From the NCBI GenBank assembly GCA_024276465.1, contig JAJRXD010000145.1, positions 1 to 40,224 of the forward strand: a stretch of 40,224 nt of DNA, written 5' to 3'. Positions 3,557 through 34,453 of the stretch are shown in pieces (the first letter of the stretch is position 1; each line of letters opens with the position of its first letter). This DNA is from Deltaproteobacteria bacterium (GTDB lineage: Bacteria; Desulfobacterota; WTBG01; CAIYCZ01; CAIRTM01). Under the pieces are notes generated by a model. That model saw only the letters and a list, made by a program, of their open reading frames with translations. It was not told the origin of the DNA and ran no database searches. Made by a program: the position numbers and the translations under genes.

Positions 3557-4219
3557 ATGAAACTCAAAACAGACTTGCACGTGCATACAAATTACTCTTT
3601 CTGTGCTTTGCTTAAGACTGATGAGATAGAGAGTGTTGCTTTGAAACATGGCCTCAATTGCGTAGCTATTACAGACCACAACACAATTGAAGGAGCCCTT
3701 GAGGTACAGTCCTGTGCAAAGACCGTTAAAGTAATAGTAGGGGAGGAGATAATGAGCAGCCAGGGGGAAATAACAGGGTATTTTCTGAAAGAAAAAATCC
3801 CTCCTTTATTATCCCCCATTGAAACTATTAAAGAGATTAAGAAACAGGGCGGGCTTGTTTCCATACCGCATCCTTTTGACAGGCTGCGCTCATCAAGGAT
3901 TAAAAGAGAGGCGCTTGAATCGATTTTATCTGAGATTGATATGATTGAAGTGTTCAATGCAAGGGATATTCTGACGCTGGTGGATAACAGCCTTGTTGAA
4001 AGGGCAATACAAAACAGAGCTGTTCCAATCGTAAGCAGTGACGCTCACCTGAAAATTGAGGTTGGAAGGGCATACATGATAATGGATGATTTTAATACGC
4101 AGGAGGAGTTTTTTCAGAATTTAAAAACAGCTCAAAAAGTTTTAAGAAAAAGCCCTTTCTGGGTGCACATGGCTACAAAAATCATCAGGTTTTATAAAAA
4201 AAAGAAGACGGAAAAATAA
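3557..4219 (+). CDS. PHP-domain metal-dependent phosphoesterase
   Basis: A 220-residue protein of the PHP superfamily. It has the metal-binding motifs in order: DLHVHTNYS near the N-terminus, AITDHNTIEG near residue 40, IPHPFDR near residue 99, and SSDAH near residue 160. These His/Asp sites normally bind two or three divalent metals and hydrolyse phosphoester bonds of nucleotides or small phosphorylated metabolites; the true substrate cannot be told. It is the third gene of the lipB-lipA operon (6-nt gap), but a link to lipoate is only positional. The transcript ends in the hairpin at 4201-4242, whose left arm lies within the last codons. Confidence 0.85.
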   Translation: MKLKTDLHVHTNYSFCALLKTDEIESVALKHGLNCVAITDHNTIEGALEVQSCAKTVKVIVGEEIMSSQGEITGYFLKEKIPPLLSPIETIKEIKKQGGLVSIPHPFDRLRSSRIKREALESILSEIDMIEVFNARDILTLVDNSLVERAIQNRAVPIVSSDAHLKIEVGRAYMIMDDFNTQEEFFQNLKTAQKVLRKSPFWVHMATKIIRFYKKKKTEK

Positions 4220-4242
4220 GCAATCCTTTCCCCGTCTTCTTT
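4201..4242. terminator. Bidirectional terminator between convergent operons
   Basis: AAAGAAGACGG (4201-4211) pairs with CCGTCTTCTTT (4232-4242). The arms are A-rich on the left and T-rich on the right, so the hairpin can act for the lipB operon reading right and for the redox operon reading left. Confidence 0.75.
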
Positions 4243-4269: not shown

Positions 4270-4503
4270 TTAGCTCTTCAGTGGCTCAAGCTTTTTAAGA
4301 GCCATTGCAACAAAAGGCTTGGGTGTAATTTCTTTAACGCATTCCATTACCATATCTTCTGTTACGGTTCCTCCGTCACCTGCTTTTGCCTCAAGGCCTG
4401 CTGTGAGCTTTTTTTCCGTCATGGCCCTGAAAGGTTTTGGGGACCCCTCAATCATTGCGTCATACATTTTCTGACTGTTGCCTTCCCATTTTAAATCCGC
4501 CAT
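4270..4503 (-). CDS. PCP_red-domain small protein
   Basis: A 77-residue soluble protein that resembles the small domain found at the C-terminus of light-independent protochlorophyllide reductase subunit B and as a stand-alone domain next to redox proteins. It shows an N-terminal Trp, a P.PFRAMTEKKL segment, and a GGTVTEDMV segment. A second PKPFVAMALKKL segment near the C-terminus repeats the first PKPFRAMTEKKL, so the protein may contain an internal duplication of the helix. It has no cysteines, so it is not itself an iron-sulfur carrier. It is the last gene of the seven-gene redox operon. A structural or docking role is only a guess. Confidence 0.65.
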   Translation of the reverse strand: MADLKWEGNSQKMYDAMIEGSPKPFRAMTEKKLTAGLEAKAGDGGTVTEDMVMECVKEITPKPFVAMALKKLEPLKS

Positions 4504-4561
4504 AATTTTCTCCTTTTGTGATTATTAATAAAATATCCCTTTTAAAGGATGCTGCTGTATT

Positions 4562-5791
4562 TCATAGAGCCATCAACATAAGATCCATTATATCATACAT
4601 TTTAATATTTTCACCATTACGTTTTATGGGGTCGATCAGATTCTGCTCACAGTAGGGACAGCAGGTAGCTATGGCATCTGCCCCGGTTTCCATGGCCTCC
4701 TCAATCCTTTCTGATGCAATTTTAAAGGCAAGGTCAGGAAATGCTGTTCTGACCCCTGCGCCTGCACCGCAGCACCAGGACTGATCCTTAATCCTTTCCA
4801 TCTCAACGAGTCGTATGCCGGGAATGGCTTTAAGGATGTTTCGAGGCTCTTCATATATTCCGCAATGGCGACCAATGTGACAGGGATCATGCCAGGTAAC
4901 ACTCATTGGAACTTCCCTATCAAATTTAATTCTTCCTTCCTCAACAAGCTGTGACAGAACCTCTGTAACATGCAGAACCTGAAAATCAATATCCTGTATG
5001 CCGGGCACTTCCGGGAAGTCGTACTTGAGAACATGGTGGCATCCTGCACAGTGTGTTATGATTTTTTTTACACCAGAGTCCTTAAACAGATCAATATTTC
5101 TTTTTACCAGGCTGAAAAATGTTTCGCGGTCACCAATACGGATTGCAGGACTTCCGCAGCATATTTCCCTTTCGCCAAAAATACCTATGCTTATGCCGGC
5201 CTGTTTAAAAACTTTTACAGTATTTTCAATTTCATGCTGCAGCAGAGGATCAAATGAAGGTGTGCAGCCTGCAAAAAACAGGTATTCGCACCTGTCTTTT
5301 TCAAAATCGTTCACCTCAATATTTTTGGCCCAGTCCCGGCGCCGGGAGCGTGGCTTGAGCCATGGGTTGTCATAGTTTTTAATGCTGTTAATGAGTTTCC
5401 TGTGTGCAGGAAGCGGAGCAATGCCAAGCTCTATCAGCCTTGCTTTGAGCGCTTCGGCTGCCTTCAGGGGTTCCTTTTCATTGAGCCTCAGGCAGTTCAT
5501 CTCGCACGCACCGCAGGAGGTGCAGAAGTAGCATATCTCAAGAAGCTTTTCTGAGTCGCTGTAATCAAAGTCCCCTTCAAGCAGCGCACGGATGATATGA
5601 AATTTGCCCATGGCACTATGAGAAAAAAAGCGTGTGTACCTGAACTCAGGGCAAATTTCATTATATTTTGAGCTTTTTACGTTCCATCCCCACTGGTTCA
5701 TGCACCAGTTGCAGCGTGCATCACCCCAGGCCATTTCCCTGTAGTCCTCAAGGCTTCTCTCATGGACCTTTTTGTCAATTTTGGGATACAT
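4562..5791 (-). CDS. CCG-domain iron-sulfur protein (HdrD/GlpC-like), second of two
   Basis: A 409-residue cytosolic electron-transfer protein. The N-terminal part has CNWC (27-30) with CP at 47-48, then a [4Fe-4S] motif CX2CX2CX3C (Cys90, 93, 96, 100). The C-terminal two thirds hold two CCG domains, with CCGSP near 209 and CCGAG near 333, like the catalytic subunits of heterodisulfide reductase and the GlpC/GlcF electron acceptors. It follows the AOR-like gene by 4 nt. Its closest visible relative is the gene at 9149-10444; they share IIT.CAGC, VTWHDPCH.GR and YEEPRNILK.IPG, so one arose by duplication. It probably passes electrons between a flavoprotein and ferredoxin or membrane carriers. 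Confidence 0.85.
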   Translation of the reverse strand: MYPKIDKKVHERSLEDYREMAWGDARCNWCMNQWGWNVKSSKYNEICPEFRYTRFFSHSAMGKFHIIRALLEGDFDYSDSEKLLEICYFCTSCGACEMNCLRLNEKEPLKAAEALKARLIELGIAPLPAHRKLINSIKNYDNPWLKPRSRRRDWAKNIEVNDFEKDRCEYLFFAGCTPSFDPLLQHEIENTVKVFKQAGISIGIFGEREICCGSPAIRIGDRETFFSLVKRNIDLFKDSGVKKIITHCAGCHHVLKYDFPEVPGIQDIDFQVLHVTEVLSQLVEEGRIKFDREVPMSVTWHDPCHIGRHCGIYEEPRNILKAIPGIRLVEMERIKDQSWCCGAGAGVRTAFPDLAFKIASERIEEAMETGADAIATCCPYCEQNLIDPIKRNGENIKMYDIMDLMLMAL

Positions 5792-5795
5792 TCAA

Positions 5796-7151
5796 TTACT
5801 TGCTTTTTTCAATCAATTCAGCTGTAATTCTTTTCAGATCATCAAGGCTGAACTCATCCCACTCAGCTGAAACCTGAACAAATTCAACTATTTTCTCGTC
5901 GGTCATTTCAGGAACCATGAGCATGATAATTGGATCAAGTCCTAACACATATGATAAAGCCTGTCTGTGAATCCACCACTGAGCACTTTCTTCCTGGTTT
6001 GCAAATATTCCTTTTGGCGGAACAGCAGCAGAAAATGCCCCTGCTGTCTGAGAGATCTCTTTTTCGTTGTTGTTTTCAATGTCCCAGCAGGTTGCTGCCT
6101 CAGCTTTGTCATGGCCTGTTTCTGCCAGTTTATCCAGGGCCTCAAGGTTTGACGCACCCTGTTTTTTTAAAATCATGCCGGCAGATGTGGGGTCCAGGCC
6201 AAGCCTGCAGCACTTTTCCATTGCCCGGGGTCCGTCAAGCCCGGCACTCTGAAGGCTTGCAAATCCAGACAGATCAGACACAAGACACCCTGGTTCAGGT
6301 TCTCCATCCATTGCCATGGCATCAGGCGCTTCCCGGTACTTTAGAAACGTATAGTAGGGGTAAGGGCAATTAAAGCTTGCATTATTTCTGTGGGTCATGC
6401 TCTTCAGCTTTTCTATTATGTCTGAATCCATGCCAAGGTCAGCGGCTATATCTTTCAGCCCCGCTTTTCCCTTAATTGTGCCGTTAATGATTTCATTTTT
6501 CAGCTCCACGCATTTCTGAAAAAATCCCTCGGCAACCTCCAGAGCACCAAGCCCCCTCATGGCTATGGCTTTTATATTTTTTTCGCCAAACACAGCCCCA
6601 AGCCCTGCCTTGTCCCTGCTTCCCCAGTAGTTCTCAGACACCTGCGCAGACAAAACCCTGTTTTCTCCGGCCTTTCCGATAAGAAATGTCTGGATCATCT
6701 CATCACCATAGGCTTCACGGATTTTGTCGGTTGATTCCCATGTGTCCCTGCCCCAGATGTCACTGGAATCATCAATGTCAGATAAGCCGTCGTGGAGCCA
6801 TAACCTGACAGGGTTGTCCGATTTGCCAAGAATTACAACAAAGTCAAAACCAGTCAGCTTCAGTTCCACTCCTGTCTGCCAGCCAAAAGGAACGTGGGCA
6901 ACAGTACCAGTGACCGGGCTTTTCCCGGTTATAACTCCGGCACAGGCAAAAGGCATAAATGTAGCTGTAAAAAACCCTGACCCTAATATCAGGGGATCCC
7001 TGTCCTTATACTGTTCATAGAGTTCCATATTTACGGCAGCTCCCCCCAGTGCTTTCTCAAGAAGCTCTTCGCTCAGGTCTTCAGTCTCGCATTCCTTTGA
7101 TTCAAGGTCGACAATAAGAATAATGCCGTTATAGTTGTTCATAGTCTCCAT
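5796..7151 (-). CDS. Short AOR-family protein lacking most cluster ligands
   Basis: A 451-residue homologue of aldehyde:ferredoxin oxidoreductase (normally about 600 residues). The N-terminal domain that wraps the tungsto- or molybdopterin is clear: ITGKSPVTG near 75-82, ELKLTGFDFVVILG at 96-109, IWGRDTWES at 132-140, GLGAVFGEKNIKAIA at 183-197. The middle domain retains CCRLGLDPTSAG at 314-324. The CX2CX3C motif that holds the [4Fe-4S] cluster reads Ser259, Cys262, Tyr266, and the usual LGLC at the fourth ligand reads LGLD (Asp406). The protein then ends about 45 residues later, without a full third domain. The start is the ATG at 7151, with AAGGAG 9 nt upstream. It may be a pterin protein that gives electrons to the ferredoxin encoded just upstream, or a non-catalytic relative. 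Confidence 0.8.
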   Translation of the reverse strand: METMNNYNGIILIVDLESKECETEDLSEELLEKALGGAAVNMELYEQYKDRDPLILGSGFFTATFMPFACAGVITGKSPVTGTVAHVPFGWQTGVELKLTGFDFVVILGKSDNPVRLWLHDGLSDIDDSSDIWGRDTWESTDKIREAYGDEMIQTFLIGKAGENRVLSAQVSENYWGSRDKAGLGAVFGEKNIKAIAMRGLGALEVAEGFFQKCVELKNEIINGTIKGKAGLKDIAADLGMDSDIIEKLKSMTHRNNASFNCPYPYYTFLKYREAPDAMAMDGEPEPGCLVSDLSGFASLQSAGLDGPRAMEKCCRLGLDPTSAGMILKKQGASNLEALDKLAETGHDKAEAATCWDIENNNEKEISQTAGAFSAAVPPKGIFANQEESAQWWIHRQALSYVLGLDPIIMLMVPEMTDEKIVEFVQVSAEWDEFSLDDLKRITAELIEKSK

Positions 7152-7155
7152 AGTT

Positions 7156-7503
7156 TTATTCTCCTTCCATGCTCAAGACAGCATATGGACATGCCTGTAT
7201 ACACACAGGACCGTTTTCCTCTTCCCCGCAGCCATCACAGGCAATACGCAAGAGAATCGGCTTTGCGCTTGCACTGGCTCCTTCAATCTGCTCACCAGGC
7301 TGAAGTATCTGTTCACCTTCAGGCCTTCCCAAGTACAGGGTCTTTGCTCTTTTTACCATCATTCCATAATAATTTTTTTTCTCCTCCTGATAAAACATCA
7401 TACTTGATCCTATGGGGGAGATGCTGTCATCATGATGATAGTTACATGCAAATTCACATATTCTGCACCCCGTACACTTCAGGGCTTCCACCTTCAGCTC
7501 CAT
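7156..7503 (-). CDS. 2x[4Fe-4S] ferredoxin-type subunit
   Basis: A 115-residue electron carrier. The first cluster motif is CX2CX2CX3C (Cys10, 13, 16, 20); the second is CX2CX8CX3CP (Cys89, 92, 101, 105). The 68-residue spacer and the CDGC spacing resemble the iron-sulfur subunits of molybdenum/tungsten oxidoreductases (DmsB/HycB type) more than a small soluble ferredoxin. It lies 4 nt before the AOR-like gene and 61 nt after the FAD oxidase, so it is the natural electron link between those two. AAGGAGG sits just upstream of the start. Confidence 0.85.
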   Translation of the reverse strand: MELKVEALKCTGCRICEFACNYHHDDSISPIGSSMMFYQEEKKNYYGMMVKRAKTLYLGRPEGEQILQPGEQIEGASASAKPILLRIACDGCGEEENGPVCIQACPYAVLSMEGE

Positions 7504-7564
7504 TTCATACCTCCTTTAATCTGAGTTAGTATTTGTTTAATACAATTCATCCGGAATGCTGCAG

Positions 7565-9133
7565 TTAATCCTCAACAGGAATATTGTGAGGGGGGTTTGA
7601 CACCAGGTTTGGATCTATTGCCTTTTTTATTCCCTTAAGGAGTTTGTCATATTTAAAGACTTTTCCTGCCATGGCGTGATACGTGCCCCCGAGAAATGGG
7701 CCAATACCGTTTTCAATACCATTCTGCAGGTCTTCTTTGGTCATGCCAAGAAGTTTGTTCATAAGGTCACCAAGATCCTCCGGAGTTTTTTCCACAGGAA
7801 AGTCGGTTTCTCCAAACCCGAAATGGCCGAAATCATATCCGCCGATCCAGTCAGGCCCGTCACTGTCAAGTATGGGGGGTGAAAACTTGTTAACCCACTC
7901 ATATCCTGTTCGTACAACTCCTATGGAGTTTCGAAGTGTGTCAGTAGGCAGCCTGAGTGCAAGGAATGTTCCTGAAGGACGCATCATCCTTGATCCGTTG
8001 GTGTCACGGATCCAGTTGTTTGCCGTACGTGGCACCCACAGGTCATAAATTTCCCTGGGAATTCGTTTGCCGCCGGTTTCCTCAATTATATCTTCAAGAA
8101 CCCTTTTTTCATACTCAAACTGTTTTTTCGAGGTAAATCCCCACAGGGAAACCCCCACCGCGTTTTTCACATTGTCCTGGAAAGTACGTTTTTTCCATGT
8201 CTCCCAGTACTGCTCATTTGAGTTGGCCCACCACCATGCATAATATACTGTGGGCCATTTCTGCAGCACAGCAGCAATTTCAGCCCGGCCAACTTCATAC
8301 ATAAAGTTAATGGCACCTTCAAGATCATCATATTTTACAATATCCCATGAAAACCTGTCCTCCGGCAGTATGGAAACCTGATTGGGTATATGTCCCTCAC
8401 ATGGCCACGTGCGTGGCCCTGGATATGGGTGAAGCTTGACAGCCATTTTTGTTACGACACCCACGCCCCCCAGGGCACCTGCATAGCCGCGAAGCATACC
8501 CCGCAGGTCAGGCCCGGGGCCTTCACCCCAGAAGCCGCATGCAGGATCCTGGGAAAAAGAACCGGTTCTTAAAATTTCCCCGTTTGGCAATACCCATTCT
8601 ATACCAAGGATGTTGCGATAGGCAACACCAATTCTGTGCCCTACACCCCACATACCCTGAAAAAGATGTCCTGCCACTGCTGAAGACTGGGCGCTGGCTT
8701 CAGGAGATCCAATGTAGAGGCCGCGCTTGTTTGCCTCAGCGTGCAGCTGTGCAAGGCTTACAAGTGGTTCGATTACTGCAAACATGTTCTTTTCATCTAT
8801 TTCATGAATTTCCCCCATGCGCTTGCAGTCAATGATAACAGTTCCTGGCCTGTTGGGTGCACTGCTCAAAGACCACTGGTTTGACCCGACTGGGATAAAG
8901 GGTATTTTAAACCGGTTGCAGATCTTTACAATTGCCTGGGTTTCCATTGTGCCGTTTGGAAGCACTACAAACTCGGGTGGTACGGATGTCCCAAGGGTTT
9001 TAGGCGGAAGCCAGTCCCCGAAGTAGGCATTCATTGTGGCCGGGCCATCAGATACATTTTCCTGTCCCAGCGCTGTTTGAAATGCCCCTAATATCTGCTG
9101 GTGCTGCTCATTGTTCCTGTCTCTGTTTTTCAT
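7565..9133 (-). CDS. FAD-linked oxidase of the VAO/4-cresol dehydrogenase type
   Basis: A 522-residue flavoprotein with a PCMH-type FAD-binding domain: PPEFVVLPNGTMETQAIVKIC (55-75), PVGSNQWS near 87-94, and a second nucleotide-contacting segment around 150-235 with GHRIGVAYRNILGIEWVLPNGEILRTG. The C-terminal cap ends in KAIDPNLVSNPPHNI, the position of the conserved DP..(V/L)(L/S)NP motif of this superfamily. Overall shape resembles vanillyl-alcohol oxidase and 4-cresol dehydrogenase, which oxidise para-substituted phenols, but the substrate cannot be named from sequence. It lies between two Fe-S protein genes, 15 nt after one, so electrons likely leave through CCG or ferredoxin subunits rather than to oxygen. 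Confidence 0.85.
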   Translation of the reverse strand: MKNRDRNNEQHQQILGAFQTALGQENVSDGPATMNAYFGDWLPPKTLGTSVPPEFVVLPNGTMETQAIVKICNRFKIPFIPVGSNQWSLSSAPNRPGTVIIDCKRMGEIHEIDEKNMFAVIEPLVSLAQLHAEANKRGLYIGSPEASAQSSAVAGHLFQGMWGVGHRIGVAYRNILGIEWVLPNGEILRTGSFSQDPACGFWGEGPGPDLRGMLRGYAGALGGVGVVTKMAVKLHPYPGPRTWPCEGHIPNQVSILPEDRFSWDIVKYDDLEGAINFMYEVGRAEIAAVLQKWPTVYYAWWWANSNEQYWETWKKRTFQDNVKNAVGVSLWGFTSKKQFEYEKRVLEDIIEETGGKRIPREIYDLWVPRTANNWIRDTNGSRMMRPSGTFLALRLPTDTLRNSIGVVRTGYEWVNKFSPPILDSDGPDWIGGYDFGHFGFGETDFPVEKTPEDLGDLMNKLLGMTKEDLQNGIENGIGPFLGGTYHAMAGKVFKYDKLLKGIKKAIDPNLVSNPPHNIPVED

Positions 9134-9148
9134 GGTTGAAAACTCCCT

Positions 9149-10444
9149 TTAAAGTGCTTTAACCATAAGGTCAAACAAATCAACTGTTTCCATTTTTTCA
9201 TTCATGCCTGCTGCTCCGGCCCTCAAGCTGGTCTCACACCACGGGCAGCTGGTAACAACCATTTCAGCACCAGTGTCCATGGCCTCTGCAAGGCGCTCAC
9301 GGGCTGTCCACCTGGCAAAGTCCTTAAACCCTGTAAAGGCTCCACCCCCCCCACCGCAGCACCATGCATATTCCCTGATCCTTTCCATTTCCACAAGCTC
9401 AACACCTGGAATTGATTTCAGGATGTTTCGAGGCTCTTCATATACCCCTTCAAGGTCCCTGCCCGGCACATAGGGACGTCCCAGCCTTCCCATGTGGCAT
9501 GGGTCATGCCATGTTACCGTAATGCCCAGCTCTTTTTTGTAGTTAATTTTTTTATCCTGGCAAAGACGATCAAGATACTCGGCAACATGGAGCACCTCAA
9601 AATTTTTCTTCTCCTCTATTTCATCATATTCAACCCTCAGTGTCCCATAGCAACCGGCACATGGGGTGATAATGGTTTTAACACCAAGTGCATTAAACTG
9701 CTTGATATTGGAAACAGCAAGACGTTCAAATTCATCAAGAATGCCTGTTTTTGAGGGCGGGCTTCCACAGCACAGCTCCTTATTGCCCAGGATGCCAAAA
9801 TCAATATTGTTTTTTAGCAGGATTCTGGCAATGTTTACAATGGTGCCTTTCAATTCGTCTGAAAGGCCATAGGTACAGCCTGCAAAAAAGAGAATATCAG
9901 ATTTTTCCCTGTTTAAATCCTTAATGCCCATTCCCTTCAGTTCCTTAACCCAGTTGTTTCTCTTTAAGCGTGGCTGAAGCCATACATTATCATACTCCCT
10001 GATGCTGTCCGTCATGGTTTTATGTTCAGGCAGAGGTCCAAAGCGTTTAACGTATTCAGAGCGAAGCCAGCGGTACATTTTTATCAGTTCAGCGTCCCTG
10101 ATGCCCTTGTCCATAGCATCACAGCCACCGCACATGGTGCACTGGAAAAGAATGTTTTTTATTTCCGGGTCGTCATCCCATTGCAGTTTTCCATCAATCA
10201 GGGCAAGTGCAAGGTCGCATTTCCCCTGGCCGGAATGTGAGTCATACAGATATTTTGTATGCTGGGGACAGATACGGGCATATTTTGCGCTTTTTACGCG
10301 CCACGAATCAACCCATTTGCAGACCGAGCAACGAGAACAGTTAAAGGCTGTCCAGCGGGCTTTTTCCTGATCAAAGGGGCCGTCTGCCGGGTATTTCAGG
10401 TATCTTGTATCCTTTGGAAGCAGCATCTCCTTGTTTTCAGTCAT
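9149..10444 (-). CDS. CCG-domain iron-sulfur protein (HdrD/GlpC-like), first of two
   Basis: A 431-residue relative of the protein at 4562-5791. The N-terminal motif has Cys36, Cys39, Cys42 and CP at 59-60. The second motif has Cys102, Cys105 and Cys108, but the fourth position is Asp112, so that cluster may be [3Fe-4S], use another ligand, or be missing. Two CCG domains follow (CCGSPPSK near 226, CCGGGGG near 362). The second carries an added LGRPYVPGRDLEG segment not present in the paralogue. It sits between the two FAD oxidases, in the same order as GlcD/GlcF-type pairs where a flavoprotein hands electrons to a CCG partner. Confidence 0.85.
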   Translation of the reverse strand: MTENKEMLLPKDTRYLKYPADGPFDQEKARWTAFNCSRCSVCKWVDSWRVKSAKYARICPQHTKYLYDSHSGQGKCDLALALIDGKLQWDDDPEIKNILFQCTMCGGCDAMDKGIRDAELIKMYRWLRSEYVKRFGPLPEHKTMTDSIREYDNVWLQPRLKRNNWVKELKGMGIKDLNREKSDILFFAGCTYGLSDELKGTIVNIARILLKNNIDFGILGNKELCCGSPPSKTGILDEFERLAVSNIKQFNALGVKTIITPCAGCYGTLRVEYDEIEEKKNFEVLHVAEYLDRLCQDKKINYKKELGITVTWHDPCHMGRLGRPYVPGRDLEGVYEEPRNILKSIPGVELVEMERIREYAWCCGGGGGAFTGFKDFARWTARERLAEAMDTGAEMVVTSCPWCETSLRAGAAGMNEKMETVDLFDLMVKAL

Positions 10445-10468
10445 GGAATCCTCCAGTTCAGGAAAATG

Positions 10469-11896
10469 TCAGTGACAAAGTTTTCCTGGATTTAAAATAT
10501 TGTTCGGGTCAAAAACTTTCTTCAGTTTTTTCAGTGTGTCCGTATATGTTGTTGTCCGTCTGTATATCATATCAGCCCACGGCCCGTAGGGCCTTGTAAA
10601 AAAAGCACCCTCACTTATCAGTTTCATGCTTAGTTCAATATAAAGGTTTCTGATATTTGCCCTTTCTTTACTGCTATCCAGATCACAGGGAAAGGAAAAA
10701 CTGATATGACATGCGCGGCCACGCTCAAGAGGCTGCATATAGAGTCCAACCTCATTAATATTCAGTCCGTAACTTGCTGCACATCTGAATGCCAGGTCTG
10801 CATAGCCCTGAGCGCGATCCATGGTTGTTATGAAAAAAATGTCCTGAGTTGAATTTTTAAACCTTGTTTTCCAGTAACCCCCTTCTGAGGGCAGGTTTCT
10901 CAGCTTGTCCAGCATGCTGTGTTCGAGCCCGGAAATTCCCCCAACAGTCCTTCCCGGCTGAAAGTTCAAATCAGAAGCAATTTCCATAAGAGCCGCTTCT
11001 TCATAGGCAATTCTTTCCACTGGCCTTCTGGGAGAACCGGCAATGACAAGAATGAGTGTGTATGGGGGCAGCTCATCCATCAGCTTGCCAAAATCCCCAT
11101 GACGTTCTTCAGACAAAAGAGAAGCAAGCAGGAATCTGTTCAGAACAAAGCATTCACTGCCAATATGCTTTTTTTGTATCCTGTATACAGGTTCAGCTGT
11201 ATCTCCCATGTTGATGAAAGGTACAAAAAAGGCTTTTTGATGTTTGGGCCGGTATTCTGTCTTGAGGTTTAACCAGGTAACAATACCCATGGTACCCTGG
11301 GCGCCCTGAAAAAACCGGAAAAAATCAATCCCAGGACCTTCTGGGTATGCTCCGTCAGTGTGTTCGTCAGAAGCGGTTCCGGTTTTAAAGATGTCGCCAC
11401 TGGGAAGTGCTATCTGCATGGTGAGGACAGGATCACCGTATTCATACTTTGGAATCAGCATTGGTTCCCGTTCAAGAGAACTGGTAAGAGCTGAGGTCAT
11501 GGGATGTGGCATTAGCGGGTTGAGAGGTATCTGCTCATGCTCCTTTAACGCATCTTGAAGCTGATGCCATGTAACGCCAGGCTCAATTTTTACTTTACGG
11601 TTTTGTGTGTCAATCTCAAGAATTTTATTCATTCTTGAAAGATCAACAACAACTCCACCCTGTTCCGGGAGGGTTGCTCCCAGGAAATGAATGCCGGAGC
11701 TTGAAGGGATCAGGGGGGTTAGTGTTTTGTTGGCAAATCTGATTAGTTCCTGAACTTCCTCAGTGTTGTCAGGGCAGACTACAGCAGAAGGTTTTTTAGG
11801 AGGGTTAAGGCTTTTGTCTCTTGAATAGATGTCCAGGGTTGCCTGATCATCAAGGATGTTTCCCGCCCCGACAATGTTCCTCAGCTCTTTAAGCAT
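10469..11896 (-). CDS. FAD-binding oxidase (GlcD-like), first gene of the redox operon
   Basis: A 475-residue PCMH-type flavoprotein. It has the FAD-binding PSAVVCPDNTEEVQELI segment (37-53), PLIPSSSGIH (63-72), VKIEPGVTW (98-106), the TGTASDEHTDGAYPEGPG segment near 180, and the C-terminal KVFDPNNILNPGKLC motif. It belongs to the same superfamily as the 522-residue oxidase downstream but they are clearly diverged, so they probably act on different substrates or form a heteromer. A strong ribosome-binding site (AGAGGAGG) precedes the ATG. It opens the seven-gene minus-strand operon and is divergent from the RACo-like gene, with a 479-bp intergenic region. Confidence 0.85.
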   Translation of the reverse strand: MLKELRNIVGAGNILDDQATLDIYSRDKSLNPPKKPSAVVCPDNTEEVQELIRFANKTLTPLIPSSSGIHFLGATLPEQGGVVVDLSRMNKILEIDTQNRKVKIEPGVTWHQLQDALKEHEQIPLNPLMPHPMTSALTSSLEREPMLIPKYEYGDPVLTMQIALPSGDIFKTGTASDEHTDGAYPEGPGIDFFRFFQGAQGTMGIVTWLNLKTEYRPKHQKAFFVPFINMGDTAEPVYRIQKKHIGSECFVLNRFLLASLLSEERHGDFGKLMDELPPYTLILVIAGSPRRPVERIAYEEAALMEIASDLNFQPGRTVGGISGLEHSMLDKLRNLPSEGGYWKTRFKNSTQDIFFITTMDRAQGYADLAFRCAASYGLNINEVGLYMQPLERGRACHISFSFPCDLDSSKERANIRNLYIELSMKLISEGAFFTRPYGPWADMIYRRTTTYTDTLKKLKKVFDPNNILNPGKLCH

Positions 11897-12112: not shown

Positions 12113-12283
12113 TAGTGTCTAAACGAAAACCTGGTGCCTGAACAAAACCCTGTTTTTTATCATTCCGATTCCGACAGAAGAGAGTCGGAAGGAGAAAGCT
12201 TTATCCATCTGTTTTTCAGCATGATTTTCAGATATCAGGCCCCTCGAAATGGTATCTTTTTATGGTTTTTGTTCAGGCATTTA
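12113..12283. mobile_element. TA-flanked inverted-repeat element (nested ends)
   Basis: The region between the redox operon and the RACo-like gene holds two left-type ends, TA-GTGTCTAAACGAAAACC (12113-12131) and GGTGCCTGAACAAAACCC (12133-12150), and one right-type end GGTTTTTGTTCAGGCATT-TA (12264-12283). The inner left end matches the right end better. The 110-bp interior shows a short TTCCGATTCCGACagaagaGAGTCGGAA hairpin. The right end lies about 90 bp before the RACo-like start and may affect its promoter. In the rest of 11897-12375, a TTTTGACGACTTCGTAAAAAA segment (11922-11942) is seen and no clear promoter. Confidence 0.5.
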
Positions 12284-12375
12284 CTACATACAGAGGAAAA
12301 AATCGTGTGCTTGACAACCGGTATATTAGATATTATCTTTCACCCTTGAAGCTAATTTTGGAGAAACAGACTGTC

Positions 12376-14055
12376 ATGTCAAAACATCTTAAGTTCCACA
12401 GGGTTACATTTCTGCCTGAAAACAGAACCATTAAAGTAGAGCACCTCAAAACAGTATTTGAGACCATTCTTGAAAACAATCCCCGGAACATACAGCTTAA
12501 TTTTGCATGTGGAGCTGAAGGTATCTGCAGGAAATGCAAAATAAGATCCTTCAAAAAAATGGGACCCTACACTCCAACTGAAAAAGGATGTCTCTCAGGG
12601 GAAGAGATTGATAAGGGGGTAAGACTGGCCTGTCAGGCCAGGGTAATTCAGGATATGAAAGCAGAAATTATTTTTAAAATGCCGTTTTCTATTATGCTGA
12701 TGGATGAACCCATTTGTGAAGAGGTTGATTTGAAACCCGGAGTTGAAAAACACCATTTTACTTCTGATGCAGATTTGGAAAAAGGGGATACCACAGATAA
12801 AAACTTTGCGGTTGCTGTTGATCTTGGGGTAAACACATTAGTTGCTTCGCTGATAGACCGGAATAAAGGCAGAAAAATTGCAGTTGTTTCAGACACCAAC
12901 CCTCAGATAGATATGGGCACTGACATTGAATCGCGGATTGATGAGGCAGCCCGTGACCCGGCTAATCTGGAGATACTGAACGAGGAGATCCTGCTGCGAA
13001 TTGATATTCTTGTTTGTGAACTGTGCAGGGTAAAAGACATTTCCCCTTTGCATGTCCATGAGATTGTCATTGCCGGAGCAACCGGTCTGCTTGACTTTTT
13101 GATAAATGGAGTTCCGGGGTTAAGTGAACACAAAGACTCTTTTGATAAAAAAAGGAAAATGGTTTTTCCTTCTGAACAGGCTGAAATAAGGTCTTCCCCA
13201 GGAGCCAGGATACATGCCTTTCCTGTAATATCTTCTTTTGTGGGGGCTGACACTGCAGCAGGCATACTGGCCACAGGACTTCACAGGTCGGAGGAAACAG
13301 TGCTTTTTTTAGATTTAGGTTATGTTGCGACAGCTGTTTTGTTTCATGAAGGCAAAATTGCAGCCACAGGTATTTCAGGCACGGGTGCTTTTGAATGTGC
13401 GGGAACAGGCTTTGGCATGCGACCTGTAGCCGGAGCTGTTGAAAGTCTGACATTTGGCAGTGATATGGATATGTCAGTTATAGGTGAAAGCCTGCCACGC
13501 GGAATCTGTGGAAGCGGCCTTATGGAGCTGACTGCAGAACTGAAACGAATCGGTGTGATTAATCAGTCGGGAGATTTTCAGGATCCATCTTCCTTGAAAG
13601 ATATGAATCCTGAAATTGTCAGAAGAGTTTCCAGTAAGGAAGGAAAGAGAATTTTTCTTTTGTATTCAGACGAAGGAGATTTTCAGACTGATATTTATGT
13701 TTCTCAGGAAGATATTTTCCTGCTCAGGCAGGCAAAAGCTTCTGTTTTGGCAATGATTAACAGTTTGTTAAGACAGATGGGAGTAACCGGCAATAAAATA
13801 AAAAGGGTTTTAGTAGGTGGAGCTTTTGGATACAGGGTTCGGACTGAGGTATTCTTTGAACTGGGACTGATCCCGCTGTTTCTCAAAGGAAATGTTTCAT
13901 TTGCAGGTAATACGTCAGTAAAAGGTGCACAAATGGCTCTTATGAACAACGATATTTTAGAAGAAGCTGAAAAAATGGTACAGGATGTTATCTGTATTCC
14001 TTTCGAAAAACCGGGAAACAGCGTAGATGATTTGCATTTTCTTCCATGGGTTTAA
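12376..14055 (+). CDS. RACo-like ferredoxin/ASKHA protein with altered ATPase motifs
   Basis: A 559-residue protein with an N-terminal [2Fe-2S] ferredoxin domain (CX5CX2CX31C: Cys45, 51, 54, 86), a linker, then the DUF4445 (ASKHA) region of reductive activators of corrinoid proteins. Supporting landmarks are GTDIESRIDEA (181-191), SSFVGADTAAGILATGL (286-302), GMRPVAGAVES and GICGSGLMEL. In characterised RACo proteins the core motifs read roughly DxGTTT, AGNTTM and DIGTNGE; here they read DLGVNT (149), AGATGL (233) and DLGYVAT (313). ATP use may therefore differ or be lost. The ATG at 12376 is chosen because it begins the ferredoxin domain and follows GGAG; a longer frame upstream to 12262 overlaps the repeat. 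No corrinoid protein or methyltransferase is in view. Confidence 0.8.
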   Translation: MSKHLKFHRVTFLPENRTIKVEHLKTVFETILENNPRNIQLNFACGAEGICRKCKIRSFKKMGPYTPTEKGCLSGEEIDKGVRLACQARVIQDMKAEIIFKMPFSIMLMDEPICEEVDLKPGVEKHHFTSDADLEKGDTTDKNFAVAVDLGVNTLVASLIDRNKGRKIAVVSDTNPQIDMGTDIESRIDEAARDPANLEILNEEILLRIDILVCELCRVKDISPLHVHEIVIAGATGLLDFLINGVPGLSEHKDSFDKKRKMVFPSEQAEIRSSPGARIHAFPVISSFVGADTAAGILATGLHRSEETVLFLDLGYVATAVLFHEGKIAATGISGTGAFECAGTGFGMRPVAGAVESLTFGSDMDMSVIGESLPRGICGSGLMELTAELKRIGVINQSGDFQDPSSLKDMNPEIVRRVSSKEGKRIFLLYSDEGDFQTDIYVSQEDIFLLRQAKASVLAMINSLLRQMGVTGNKIKRVLVGGAFGYRVRTEVFFELGLIPLFLKGNVSFAGNTSVKGAQMALMNNDILEEAEKMVQDVICIPFEKPGNSVDDLHFLPWV

Positions 14056-24177: not shown

Positions 24178-25431
24178 TTACGGGCACTGAACCACACCCT
24201 GAGCCCACAAACATCCCCCGCATGTGGGGAAGGAACTTCCAAAACAGTCCTCCATATTGCCCAGAGACCTTTCACAGCCTCCGCAGGCAGTGCATGGCGA
24301 AAAATCAAATCTTTGAACTTTTTCACGGAAAGCGACATGCTCTGGTTTGTTCCAGAGACTGACCAGGGGTTGATCAGCCACATTACCAATGATATGTTTT
24401 TTTATTAAGCGTTTCCGGTCCCCGAGAAAAAATGTGTGGTCGTGCAGCAAAGGCAAACAGGGGGAGAGACTTCCATCCCAGCCAACAGACGTGGTGCCAT
24501 CTTCAATAAAGGGGCAGCAGGGATTTTCTTCGTTCAAATTAGAACCGCCAAACAAGAGATTCCATCCTCTGGAAACAGCTTCTGAAATTGCATCACCAAA
24601 CTCTGCGGTGTTGTATGTTTTTGGAATTTTTATGTTCGGGACCCACTGTGAGGGTTTGGCCCCTGTTTTTTTCAGCAGACGCGGGAACAGTGTCTCTTTT
24701 CGAAGTTCCCCGGTGTAAGGGATAACATTGCTGACCATAAGGCGGCTTGCCCCGAATGTTTTTGCCATGCGCATAACAGCCGGTAAATCTGAAATATTCC
24801 TCCTCATTGCCACAAAAGCAATTCCAATTTCAGGAGTGGGCACGTGTGAAAGAGGGCGTGCAGATCTGAAAAATTTTATCTTTTGAACAACCCTGTCCAA
24901 AGATGCCCCGACACGCACATCTGCGTAGCTTTCCTGTGTTGCGCCGTCCATGGAGACCCACAGCATATCAAGCCCTGAGTCAATAAGGCTGCGGGACATC
25001 TGCTCATTTAGCAGTGTTGCGTTTGTAATCAATTCAACCCTTGAGCCAATGGTTTTTGCCTGCTTAATCATTTCTGTTACATGTTCATGAAGAAGAGGTT
25101 CGCCAAGACCGCCAAAAAAAACTGTCGGAGAAGGTGAAACTGTCTGCAGGCTTTTGATAATACAATCAAATACAGTTTGGGGCATAATGTCACAGGGCTC
25201 ATCCCATACATTACGAATGCAGGTACAGCAGCCCAGGTTGCACCTGTTTGTTATCTCAACATATACTTTTTTAAGCAGGGTTATTGGCTGCCTGACAGTC
25301 AGGCTGTTTGTGCCCTGTTCAATAAAAAGTTTTGTTCCCGGTGTGAGACCGTATTGAGAGCGTATTTCCGGGGAAACCACAATGCGTCCGGAATTATCAA
25401 TGTACCCCGTGTTTTTTGATTTTTTGTTCAT
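24178..25431 (-). CDS. AbrB-radical SAM-SPASM protein, tungsto-enzyme maturase type
   Basis: A 417-residue fusion. Residues about 8-48 form a SpoVT/AbrB-like DNA-binding or dimerisation domain (IDNSGRIVVSPEIRSQYGL...). The radical SAM domain follows with CX3CX2C in NRCNLGCCTCIR, GGLGEPLLH and LITNATLLN. The C-terminus is a cysteine-rich SPASM-type region ending in FSPCTACGGCE ... CGGCLWAQGVVQCP. From memory, this domain order and C-terminal block fit the family called tungsten-cofactor oxidoreductase radical SAM maturase, which co-occurs with AOR-family enzymes; that naming is recall, not a search. The ATG at 25431 is used; a GTG at 25440 is possible. It heads a three-gene minus-strand unit. 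Confidence 0.75.
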   Translation of the reverse strand: MNKKSKNTGYIDNSGRIVVSPEIRSQYGLTPGTKLFIEQGTNSLTVRQPITLLKKVYVEITNRCNLGCCTCIRNVWDEPCDIMPQTVFDCIIKSLQTVSPSPTVFFGGLGEPLLHEHVTEMIKQAKTIGSRVELITNATLLNEQMSRSLIDSGLDMLWVSMDGATQESYADVRVGASLDRVVQKIKFFRSARPLSHVPTPEIGIAFVAMRRNISDLPAVMRMAKTFGASRLMVSNVIPYTGELRKETLFPRLLKKTGAKPSQWVPNIKIPKTYNTAEFGDAISEAVSRGWNLLFGGSNLNEENPCCPFIEDGTTSVGWDGSLSPCLPLLHDHTFFLGDRKRLIKKHIIGNVADQPLVSLWNKPEHVAFREKVQRFDFSPCTACGGCERSLGNMEDCFGSSFPTCGGCLWAQGVVQCP

Positions 25432-25440
25432 AGCTGCCAC

Positions 25441-31156: not shown

Positions 31157-32179
31157 TTATATATCAAGATTTTTAACCTGTAATGCATTAGCATAAATAA
31201 AATCGCGCCTTGGCTGTACCTGATCTCCCATCAGAATGGTAAAAACCTCCTCTGCCTCCACACCATCTTCAATCTTTACCTGCAGCATCCTTCTGTTCTC
31301 AGGGTCCATTGTGGTTTCCCAGAGCTGGTCAGGGTTCATTTCTCCCAGGCCTTTGTATCTTTGAATATCCTGAAATTTTTTGCCCCGTTCAAGGATTCGG
31401 GCAAGAACTTCTGAAAGGGTTGGGGCTTCAAATTCGTTCCCATTCTCTGCTGTTATGAAAGGAGGCTCGCCAATATTTTTAAGTGCCGAGGCAATTTTTT
31501 TCAGCTCTGCCATGTCAGGCGAAACAAGAAGCTCAAAATCAATCACCATTTTTTTTGTCTTGCCGTTTGTCTTTGTTGTGCATTCCAGCGCAAAACAGTT
31601 ATGCTCTGTATCTTCAATAAGTTCATACTTTGCAGGTGTAATATATTCATAAAAAAAGCTGGCATGCTTTTTCAGAGAATCAAGCAGCTTTTTTATCTCC
31701 TCTTTGTTTTTCAGCGTACCCTTGTCATAGGAACCTTCTATGGCAATGGCGCTGAGAATGTTTTTATCCAGATCTTTCTTTTCCATTTTTGCCAGGGTTT
31801 TTTCAAAAAGTATGGCTTTTTTTATGAGGTGGAGAAGTCTCTGGCCGGTCACAGGAGTGCCCCCGTTTTTAGAAACCACTTTCATTGATTCAATGCCGCT
31901 CTCTAACAGATAGTTTTCAAGTGCTGTTTCATCATTTATATAGCTTGCCTTTTGCTTGCCTTTTTTAACCCTGAAAAGCGGGGGCTGGGCAATATAAAGA
32001 TAGCCCCTTTCTATAAGCTCCGGCATCTGCCTGAAGAAAAAGGTAAGAAGAAGTGTCCTGATGTGGGACCCGTCAACATCGGCATCTGTCATGATGATTA
32101 CCCTGTGATATCTGAGCTTTGAAATGTCAAAATCATCCTTTCCTATGCTGGTTCCAAGAGCTGTAATAATAGTTTTAAT
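31157..32179 (-). CDS. gyrB: DNA gyrase subunit B, part after the in-frame TAG
   Basis: The same frame as 32180-33592 continues after the TAG with IKTIITALGTSIG ... DDFDISKLRYHRVII, then MTDADVDGSHIRTLLLTFFFRQM, the second TOPRIM metal motif (DADVDG), and the C-terminal GyrA-contact region with QRYKGLGEMNPDQLWETTMDP. An insertion of roughly 165 residues between these two, as in Escherichia coli GyrB, makes the full protein about 811 residues. If translation restarts, the ATG at 32092 is the likely site, with AGGG about 9 nt upstream, but that product would lack the first TOPRIM half. Confidence 0.85.
   Translation of the reverse strand: MKTIITALGTSIGKDDFDISKLRYHRVIIMTDADVDGSHIRTLLLTFFFRQMPELIERGYLYIAQPPLFRVKKGKQKASYINDETALENYLLESGIESMKVVSKNGGTPVTGQRLLHLIKKAILFEKTLAKMEKKDLDKNILSAIAIEGSYDKGTLKNKEEIKKLLDSLKKHASFFYEYITPAKYELIEDTEHNCFALECTTKTNGKTKKMVIDFELLVSPDMAELKKIASALKNIGEPPFITAENGNEFEAPTLSEVLARILERGKKFQDIQRYKGLGEMNPDQLWETTMDPENRRMLQVKIEDGVEAEEVFTILMGDQVQPRRDFIYANALQVKNLDI

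Positions 32180-34453
<2,274 letters not shown>

Follow-up and report, generated by a model that had tools for sequence, protein, structure and literature searches.

The window analyzed here is a 40,224-nucleotide stretch of contig JAJRXD010000145.1 from a Deltaproteobacteria bacterium (assembly GCA_024276465.1, 4.1 Mb in 181 contigs). It carries seven consecutive open reading frames (ORFs) on the minus strand, running from 11896 down to 4270, with the coordinates and strand that the initial annotation had given for a redox operon. In order, these genes (g1 to g7; Table 1) encode a GlcD-like FAD protein, a CCG protein, a VAO-like FAD protein, a 2[4Fe-4S] ferredoxin (Fd), an aldehyde oxidoreductase (AOR)-like protein, a second CCG protein and a small protein. 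The intergenic gaps from g1 to g7 are 24, 15, 61, 4, 4 and 58 bases, and the seven genes form a genuine, tight operon. Six of the seven labels proposed initially were recovered with Pfam, which found FAD_binding_4 in two proteins (one of them also with FAD-oxidase_C), CCG in two, a 4Fe-4S domain in one and AFOR_N in one. The seventh label, PCP_red for g7, was not supported, as Pfam gave no match even at an E-value of 10. Directly 3' of g7 lies a 16-bp hairpin followed by a U tract (-19.5 kcal/mol, z -3.66), which is probably the terminator of the operon; it was found by folding and had been missed by a simple terminator scan because its loop exceeds 8 nt.

Table 1 Features of the seven-gene operon, in window coordinates
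Feature	Position	Strand	Basis
g1: GlcD-like FAD subunit, 475 aa, FAD_binding_4 + FAD-oxidase_C	10469..11896	-	Pfam
g2: HdrD/GlcF-like, 431 aa, two CCG domains and N-terminal cysteine motifs	9149..10444	-	Pfam, motif reading
g3: VAO/PCMH-superfamily FAD subunit, 522 aa	7565..9133	-	Pfam, structure-sequence matches
g4: 115-aa Fe-S protein, 8 Cys	7156..7503	-	Pfam, Cys count
g5: shortened AOR-fold protein, 451 aa, AFOR_N	5796..7151	-	Pfam, model
g6: second HdrD-like CCG protein, 409 aa	4562..5791	-	Pfam
g7: conserved 77-aa protein, not PCP_red by Pfam	4270..4503	-	ORF and orthologues
Hairpin and U tract	4201..4242	-	Folding

The initial annotation had proposed a search for the same gene order in relatives, and this search found it intact in some genomes and partial in others. 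Here, f1 denotes the family of the window, f2 a family that includes order-mates (L099, L100), and f3 class-mates without the operon. Four other f1 genomes (L034, L036, L037 and L038) hold all seven genes in the same order at 58-83% identity (g1 68-72%, g2 76-79%, g3 78-82%, g4 80-83%, g5 58-67%, g6 79-81%, g7 64-72%), and agreeing fragments lie at contig edges in L031, L039 and both order-mates. This conservation exceeds chance. Parts of the operon are rearranged in f5 genomes (L041, L045, L101), one f1 genome (G001, 76% complete) has no orthologue, and the viral contigs searched gave no match. Identity across f1 is 78-84% for g3 and mostly 79-85% for GyrB (60% in one genome); with values this similar, g3 changes at about the slow pace of a core gene. 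The 14 g3 orthologues group in a single well-supported clade and come only from families f1, f2, f4 and f5 of the class.

The most unusual part of the operon is the short-AOR branch represented by g5. Pfam recognized AFOR_N in this protein, and no AFOR C-terminal domain even at an E-value of 10. Its AlphaFold2 model (pLDDT 82) aligned with PfAOR (1aor) over 432 of 451 residues (Z 35.9, 24% identity), so g5 is modelled as a shortened whole AOR and no lone N-terminal domain. We aligned g5 with 11 full-length AORs and 27 other short forms. The NRxxGRxG motif of the full-length proteins is replaced in nearly all short forms by an NYWGSxD-type motif, and this altered pterin-region motif spans, by our count, PfAOR Arg182-Ala183; Ala183 of PfAOR is a magnesium ligand (PMC12096430). 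The columns of the catalytic Glu313 and His448 (PfAOR numbering) hold Gly and Phe in f1, in a region where the alignment is uncertain. At the four [4Fe-4S] ligand positions, g5 of the window has S, C, Y and D, so that one Cys of four is left, and the eight f1 short AORs seen read S/G/A-C-Y/A-D. Desulfobacteraceae-like forms (a guessed affiliation, here and below) mostly read C-T-T-H. All four Cys are kept in both order-mates of f2, in L057, in archaeal forms and in L096, L104, L105 and L116. In this whole comparison, the equivalence of the fourth Cys is an alignment judgement resting on a GxCP motif, and loci L050-L059 are largely the same genomes as L031-L038. Taken together, model and alignment show g5 as an AOR fold that has lost three of its four [4Fe-4S] ligands, and the altered residues strongly suggest that it lacks the tungsten cofactor. 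A function as a tungsten aldehyde oxidoreductase appears unlikely, and g5 fails the published definition of tungsten oxidoreductases, which calls for both the N- and C-terminal family domains (PMC13328260).

The partner of g5 is g4, whose eight Cys leave room for two [4Fe-4S] clusters and which resembles the small Fe-S subunit of Aromatoleum AOR (8c0z_C). Full-length matches to the short AOR (>300 bits) occur in 34 of 395 Desulfobacterota genomes, with ordinary AORs set clearly apart (~155 bits or less, mostly an N-terminal match only). Wherever the contig allows, g4 lies directly upstream of the short AOR, and the two remain adjacent across distant families. The short AOR with its Fd partner makes up a branch of its own within the AOR fold, one that has not been described before. 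Outside the class of the window, GlcD and/or CCG homologues lie within ~10 kb of the pair at 18 of 23 loci, and both at 12 of 23 (binomial 3e-9 and 6e-4, at an assumed background of 0.2 that was estimated from copy numbers and with related loci that are not independent). Two distant loci, L111 and L117, repeat the series GlcD-CCG-FAD-Fd-AOR on a single strand; in L117 an extra flavoprotein gene stands between FAD and Fd. At L115 the pair is followed by genes for a BPL_N-domain protein, multihaem cytochromes, a cytochrome-b-like protein and a DsrK-like CCG protein, and at L103 by NrfD, a molybdopterin oxidoreductase and similar genes. It is possible, if still tentative and held at slightly less than even confidence, that this widespread branch has abandoned tungsten chemistry and now serves as a structural or electron-transfer hub for flavin/HdrD dehydrogenases, having lost the [4Fe-4S] ligands in several lineages, and that the seven genes encode a complex at the core of energy metabolism in a Desulfobacterota class without cultured members.

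Two further settings of the pair were observed. Desulfobacteraceae-like loci (L115, L110, L113, L114 and similar) share a conserved divergent GlcD-CCG beside Fd-short AOR-BPL_N-multihaem cytochromes-cytochrome b-DsrK-like CCG, a set suggestive of electron transfer to the membrane or periplasm. Thermoplasmata-type archaea (L061, L062, L064) encode short AORs of ~390-400 aa with all four Fe-S cysteines, in similar neighborhoods and with a small Fe-S gene directly upstream.

Genes g1 to g3 form a GlcD-CCG-VAO trio. In g2, the second of the N-terminal cysteine motifs is without its fourth Cys. g3 matches solved VAO/PCMH and related flavoproteins only over the FAD domain (~residues 52-239), and its C-terminal half, used alone or as a profile, matched no solved structure. 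A profile of ten diverse trio proteins matches PCMH over 52-512, most of its length, and for this reason the fold of g3 is probably that of PCMH, but no substrate can be read from it. Such trios lie on one strand in many Desulfobacterota families, with several copies per genome. The genome of the window has further sets on other contigs (L119, L120, and L121 without the CCG gene). Elsewhere, trios adjoin EtfAB (L141, L146, L155), a thiolase (L156), a xanthine-dehydrogenase-type molybdoenzyme (L157) or flavoproteins of other kinds (L119, L124, L141). Around the f1 trios L119 and L124 we also observed several copies of a ~440-aa FAD oxidoreductase, with NuoEF-type genes at L119. SCP2 sterol-carrier-like proteins are encoded directly upstream of GlcD-CCG-FAD in L111 (15147-15566) and L117 (1159-1572), hinting at hydrophobic substrates for some trios.

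Of the two remaining subunits, g6 has both CCG cysteine sets complete and is 55% identical to the CCG proteins of other GlcD-CCG-VAO trios in the same lineage. For g7, DUF2621 is a weak match in all five orthologues (best 1.2e-4), and the protein encoded in the window, at 15.9 bits, stays below the cut-off of 27.7.

The architecture of g1 to g3 was made known in 2026 from benzene-degrading enrichments. It is shared by BzS1_12970/80/90 (PMC13416013) and by 'Magic' proteins 24-26 of Ca. Anaerobenzenivorax ORM2a, for which an AlphaFold 3 model places the trio in a GlcDEF-like complex (PMC13101534); both trios are reported as the most abundant proteins of their enrichments. The benzene-degrader proteins are 63-89% identical among themselves; the kinship of g1 to g3 with them was judged from layout and domains alone. 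Both papers call the role in benzene degradation unproven (PMC13416013, PMC13101534). The initial annotation had not recognized the operon as a described pathway, and for the full seven-gene set this stands, as our literature searches found no description of it; g1 to g3, by contrast, match the published architecture.

The lifestyle of the lineage was assessed from marker genes. No genome of f1, f2, f4 or f5 has dsrA above the cut-off, and for the benzoyl-CoA ring hydrolase (6-oxocyclohexene-carbonyl-CoA hydrolase) these genomes score ~72 bits or less, like general crotonases; the f3 class-mates score ~440 bits, against a curated cut-off of 464. Every f1 and f2 genome carries CdhC of the carbon monoxide dehydrogenase/acetyl-CoA synthase (CODH/ACS) complex. 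The metagenome-assembled genomes (MAGs) that hold the operon as core come from lakes, wastewater and coral. This gene content suggests that the lineage is a fermentative, syntrophic or acetogenic anaerobe and no classical benzoyl-CoA sulfate reducer. In our best explanation, the operon would belong to the core metabolism of the lineage.

From gene order and knowledge of these families, we infer how the products could assemble and pass electrons, and what g5 could contribute. The operon would encode one cytoplasmic multi-subunit flavin/iron-sulfur dehydrogenase (or reductase). In it, g1, g2 and g3 would form a GlcDEF-like heterotrimer with the 'Magic'/BzS1 layout, in which an HdrD-like Fe-S subunit links two FAD sites and one of the flavins, most likely that of g3, acts on the substrate. 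Electrons would run via the two [4Fe-4S] clusters of g4 onto g5, which would act as docking hub and scaffold without tungstopterin residues and, in f1, without cluster ligands. With g6 as a second, HdrD-like electron port, the arm of g4, g5 and g6 would move electrons to or from that port. The initial annotation had suggested a multi-subunit electron-transfer complex, and this is well supported by the conserved order, the GlcDEF/'Magic'-like trio and the Fe-S wiring. We put roughly equal weight for and against the more specific proposal, in which a dehydrogenase of GlcDEF type carries an additional electron-transfer arm built around an AOR stripped of its cofactors.

Several points weigh against this proposal. 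The AlphaFold2 model of g3, built from seven close relatives, reached a pLDDT of 28 and gave no usable fold. The cofactor loss of g5 is read from an alignment, and the protein could still show residual pterin binding. Finally, co-transcription is no proof of one complex, and g1-g3 and g4-g7 could be two enzymes. A serious rival therefore holds that the transcript encodes a GlcD-CCG-VAO dehydrogenase and, independently, a separate Fd/AOR-like/CCG electron carrier complex. It draws on the many genomes that hold the trio without the Fd/AOR part, or the Fd/AOR part without a complete trio, both of which are common. The joint order kept in f1, and the GlcD-CCG-FAD-Fd-AOR order of L111 and L117, count against it, and we regard it as doubtful.

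Returning to a single complex, it could be of the flavin-based bifurcating or confurcating kind, coupling NADH or an organic donor to ferredoxin and a high-potential acceptor. The two flavoproteins and several Fe-S subunits of the operon would fit such a function, related trios adjoin the EtfAB or NuoEF-type genes described above, and similar speculation has been offered for the BzS1 trio (PMC13416013). However, Pfam found no HdrA, Etf or NADH-binding subunit in the operon, and we consider this explanation unlikely.

Decidedly unlikely, in our estimate, is a dehydrogenase for 2-hydroxyacids of the glycolate/lactate type, akin to GlcDEF/LctD and passing its electrons through Fe-S centers. The trio resembles GlcDEF, and both g1 and g3 match the GlcD model TIGR00387 over the FAD domain, but their scores (103.5 and 85.2 bits) are 5-7 times below the curated cut-off of 567.9. 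Among solved 2-hydroxyacid dehydrogenases, g3 found matches no further than its FAD domain, and those of g1 end by ~residue 294. GlcD and D-LDH feature an HxGDGNxH-type metal motif, which is absent from the sequences of g1 and g3.

That the trio activates benzene or another unsubstituted aromatic and feeds the benzoyl-CoA pathway, as proposed for BzS1 and Ca. Anaerobenzenivorax, is highly improbable here: subunit order and domain make-up are the same and sizes similar (PMC13416013, PMC13101534), but the operon is core in lake, wastewater and coral MAGs, has no CoA ligase, MaoC or CoA-transferase genes beside it and belongs to families without the ring hydrolase, and homologues of 23-42% identity are reported from strains unable to use benzene (Musat 2026, PMC13416013). 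Benzene is an unlikely substrate because the lineage lacks both the ring hydrolase and dsrA and carries CODH/ACS. The aromatic substrate that the initial annotation had read from the VAO-like member is likewise a weak hint, as only the FAD domain of g3 matches VAO/PCMH and the lineage is without the ring hydrolase.

Neighboring genes were also considered. The divergent gene at 12262-14055 encodes a RACo/AcsV-like corrinoid activator, and the same genome has CODH/ACS; it was rejected as a member of the system, as tblastn found none beside the operon in other genomes. The downstream PHP gene was rejected too, being convergent and outside the transcript, though it is shared at L051 and L034. Further along the window, 24178-25440 encodes a radical-SAM-like protein whose N-terminus looks, by eye, like an AbrB/MazE-type DNA-binding domain. 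An in-frame TAG at 32090-32200 (LQNE*IKTIITALG) interrupts gyrB (minus strand, 33592 to 31157), where gyrB of most relatives has an open frame of ~810 codons. Pyrrolysine was rejected as the cause, as the genome has no PylS; the data do not distinguish a sequencing error from recoding or a broken gene.

How benzene is activated anaerobically has long been an open question, for which the GlcD-FeS-VAO trio is now the leading candidate. Its layout is widespread, occurs in multiple copies and is here core in a lineage without the ring hydrolase; therefore, the architecture alone is no benzene marker. The trio of the window and its kin offer relatives in which its basic chemistry can be worked out. 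In the short-AOR branch, cluster loss between families is a natural experiment on the conversion of a metalloenzyme fold into a scaffold for electron transfer, and these genes call for caution against annotation as aldehyde oxidoreductases.

Among known systems, E. coli GlcDEF likewise has two FAD subunits and one CCG Fe-S subunit; the window operon differs in its extra subunits and in scores far below the curated cut-offs. With the VAO/PCMH aryl oxidases, g3 shares the FAD-binding domain of the family, but its substrate half is unmatched alone and the operon has no cytochrome subunit. The model of g5 covers the whole fold of the AOR/WOR family (PfAOR 1aor, Aromatoleum AOR 8c0z, YdhV; Z 31-36), and a small Fe-S partner gene lies directly upstream, as in that family. 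In contrast to these enzymes, g5 is ~150 residues shorter, is without the AFOR C-terminal domain, carries the NYWGSxD-type motif in place of NRxxGRxG and, in f1, has lost Fe-S ligands. The BzS1 and ORM2a trios share the one-strand order FAD oxidase, Hdr-like Fe-S protein, FAD oxidase. In the BzS1 trio, as here, subunit 1 has the FAD-oxidase C-terminus, the middle subunit two CCG domains and the third an N-terminal FAD domain only (PMC13416013), and ORM2a protein 25 lacks a cysteine from one motif, as does g2. BzS1_12990, at 65.8 kDa, is larger than the 522-aa g3. Unlike both trios, the window operon stands in a lineage without the ring hydrolase and lacks the CoA-ligase/MaoC/CoA-transferase neighbors, which were recognized beside none of the trios found in genomes of the phylum, in the loci read. 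It adds a ferredoxin, a short AOR, a second CCG protein and a 77-aa protein, and is a larger, previously undescribed form of the flavoprotein architecture made known in 2026.

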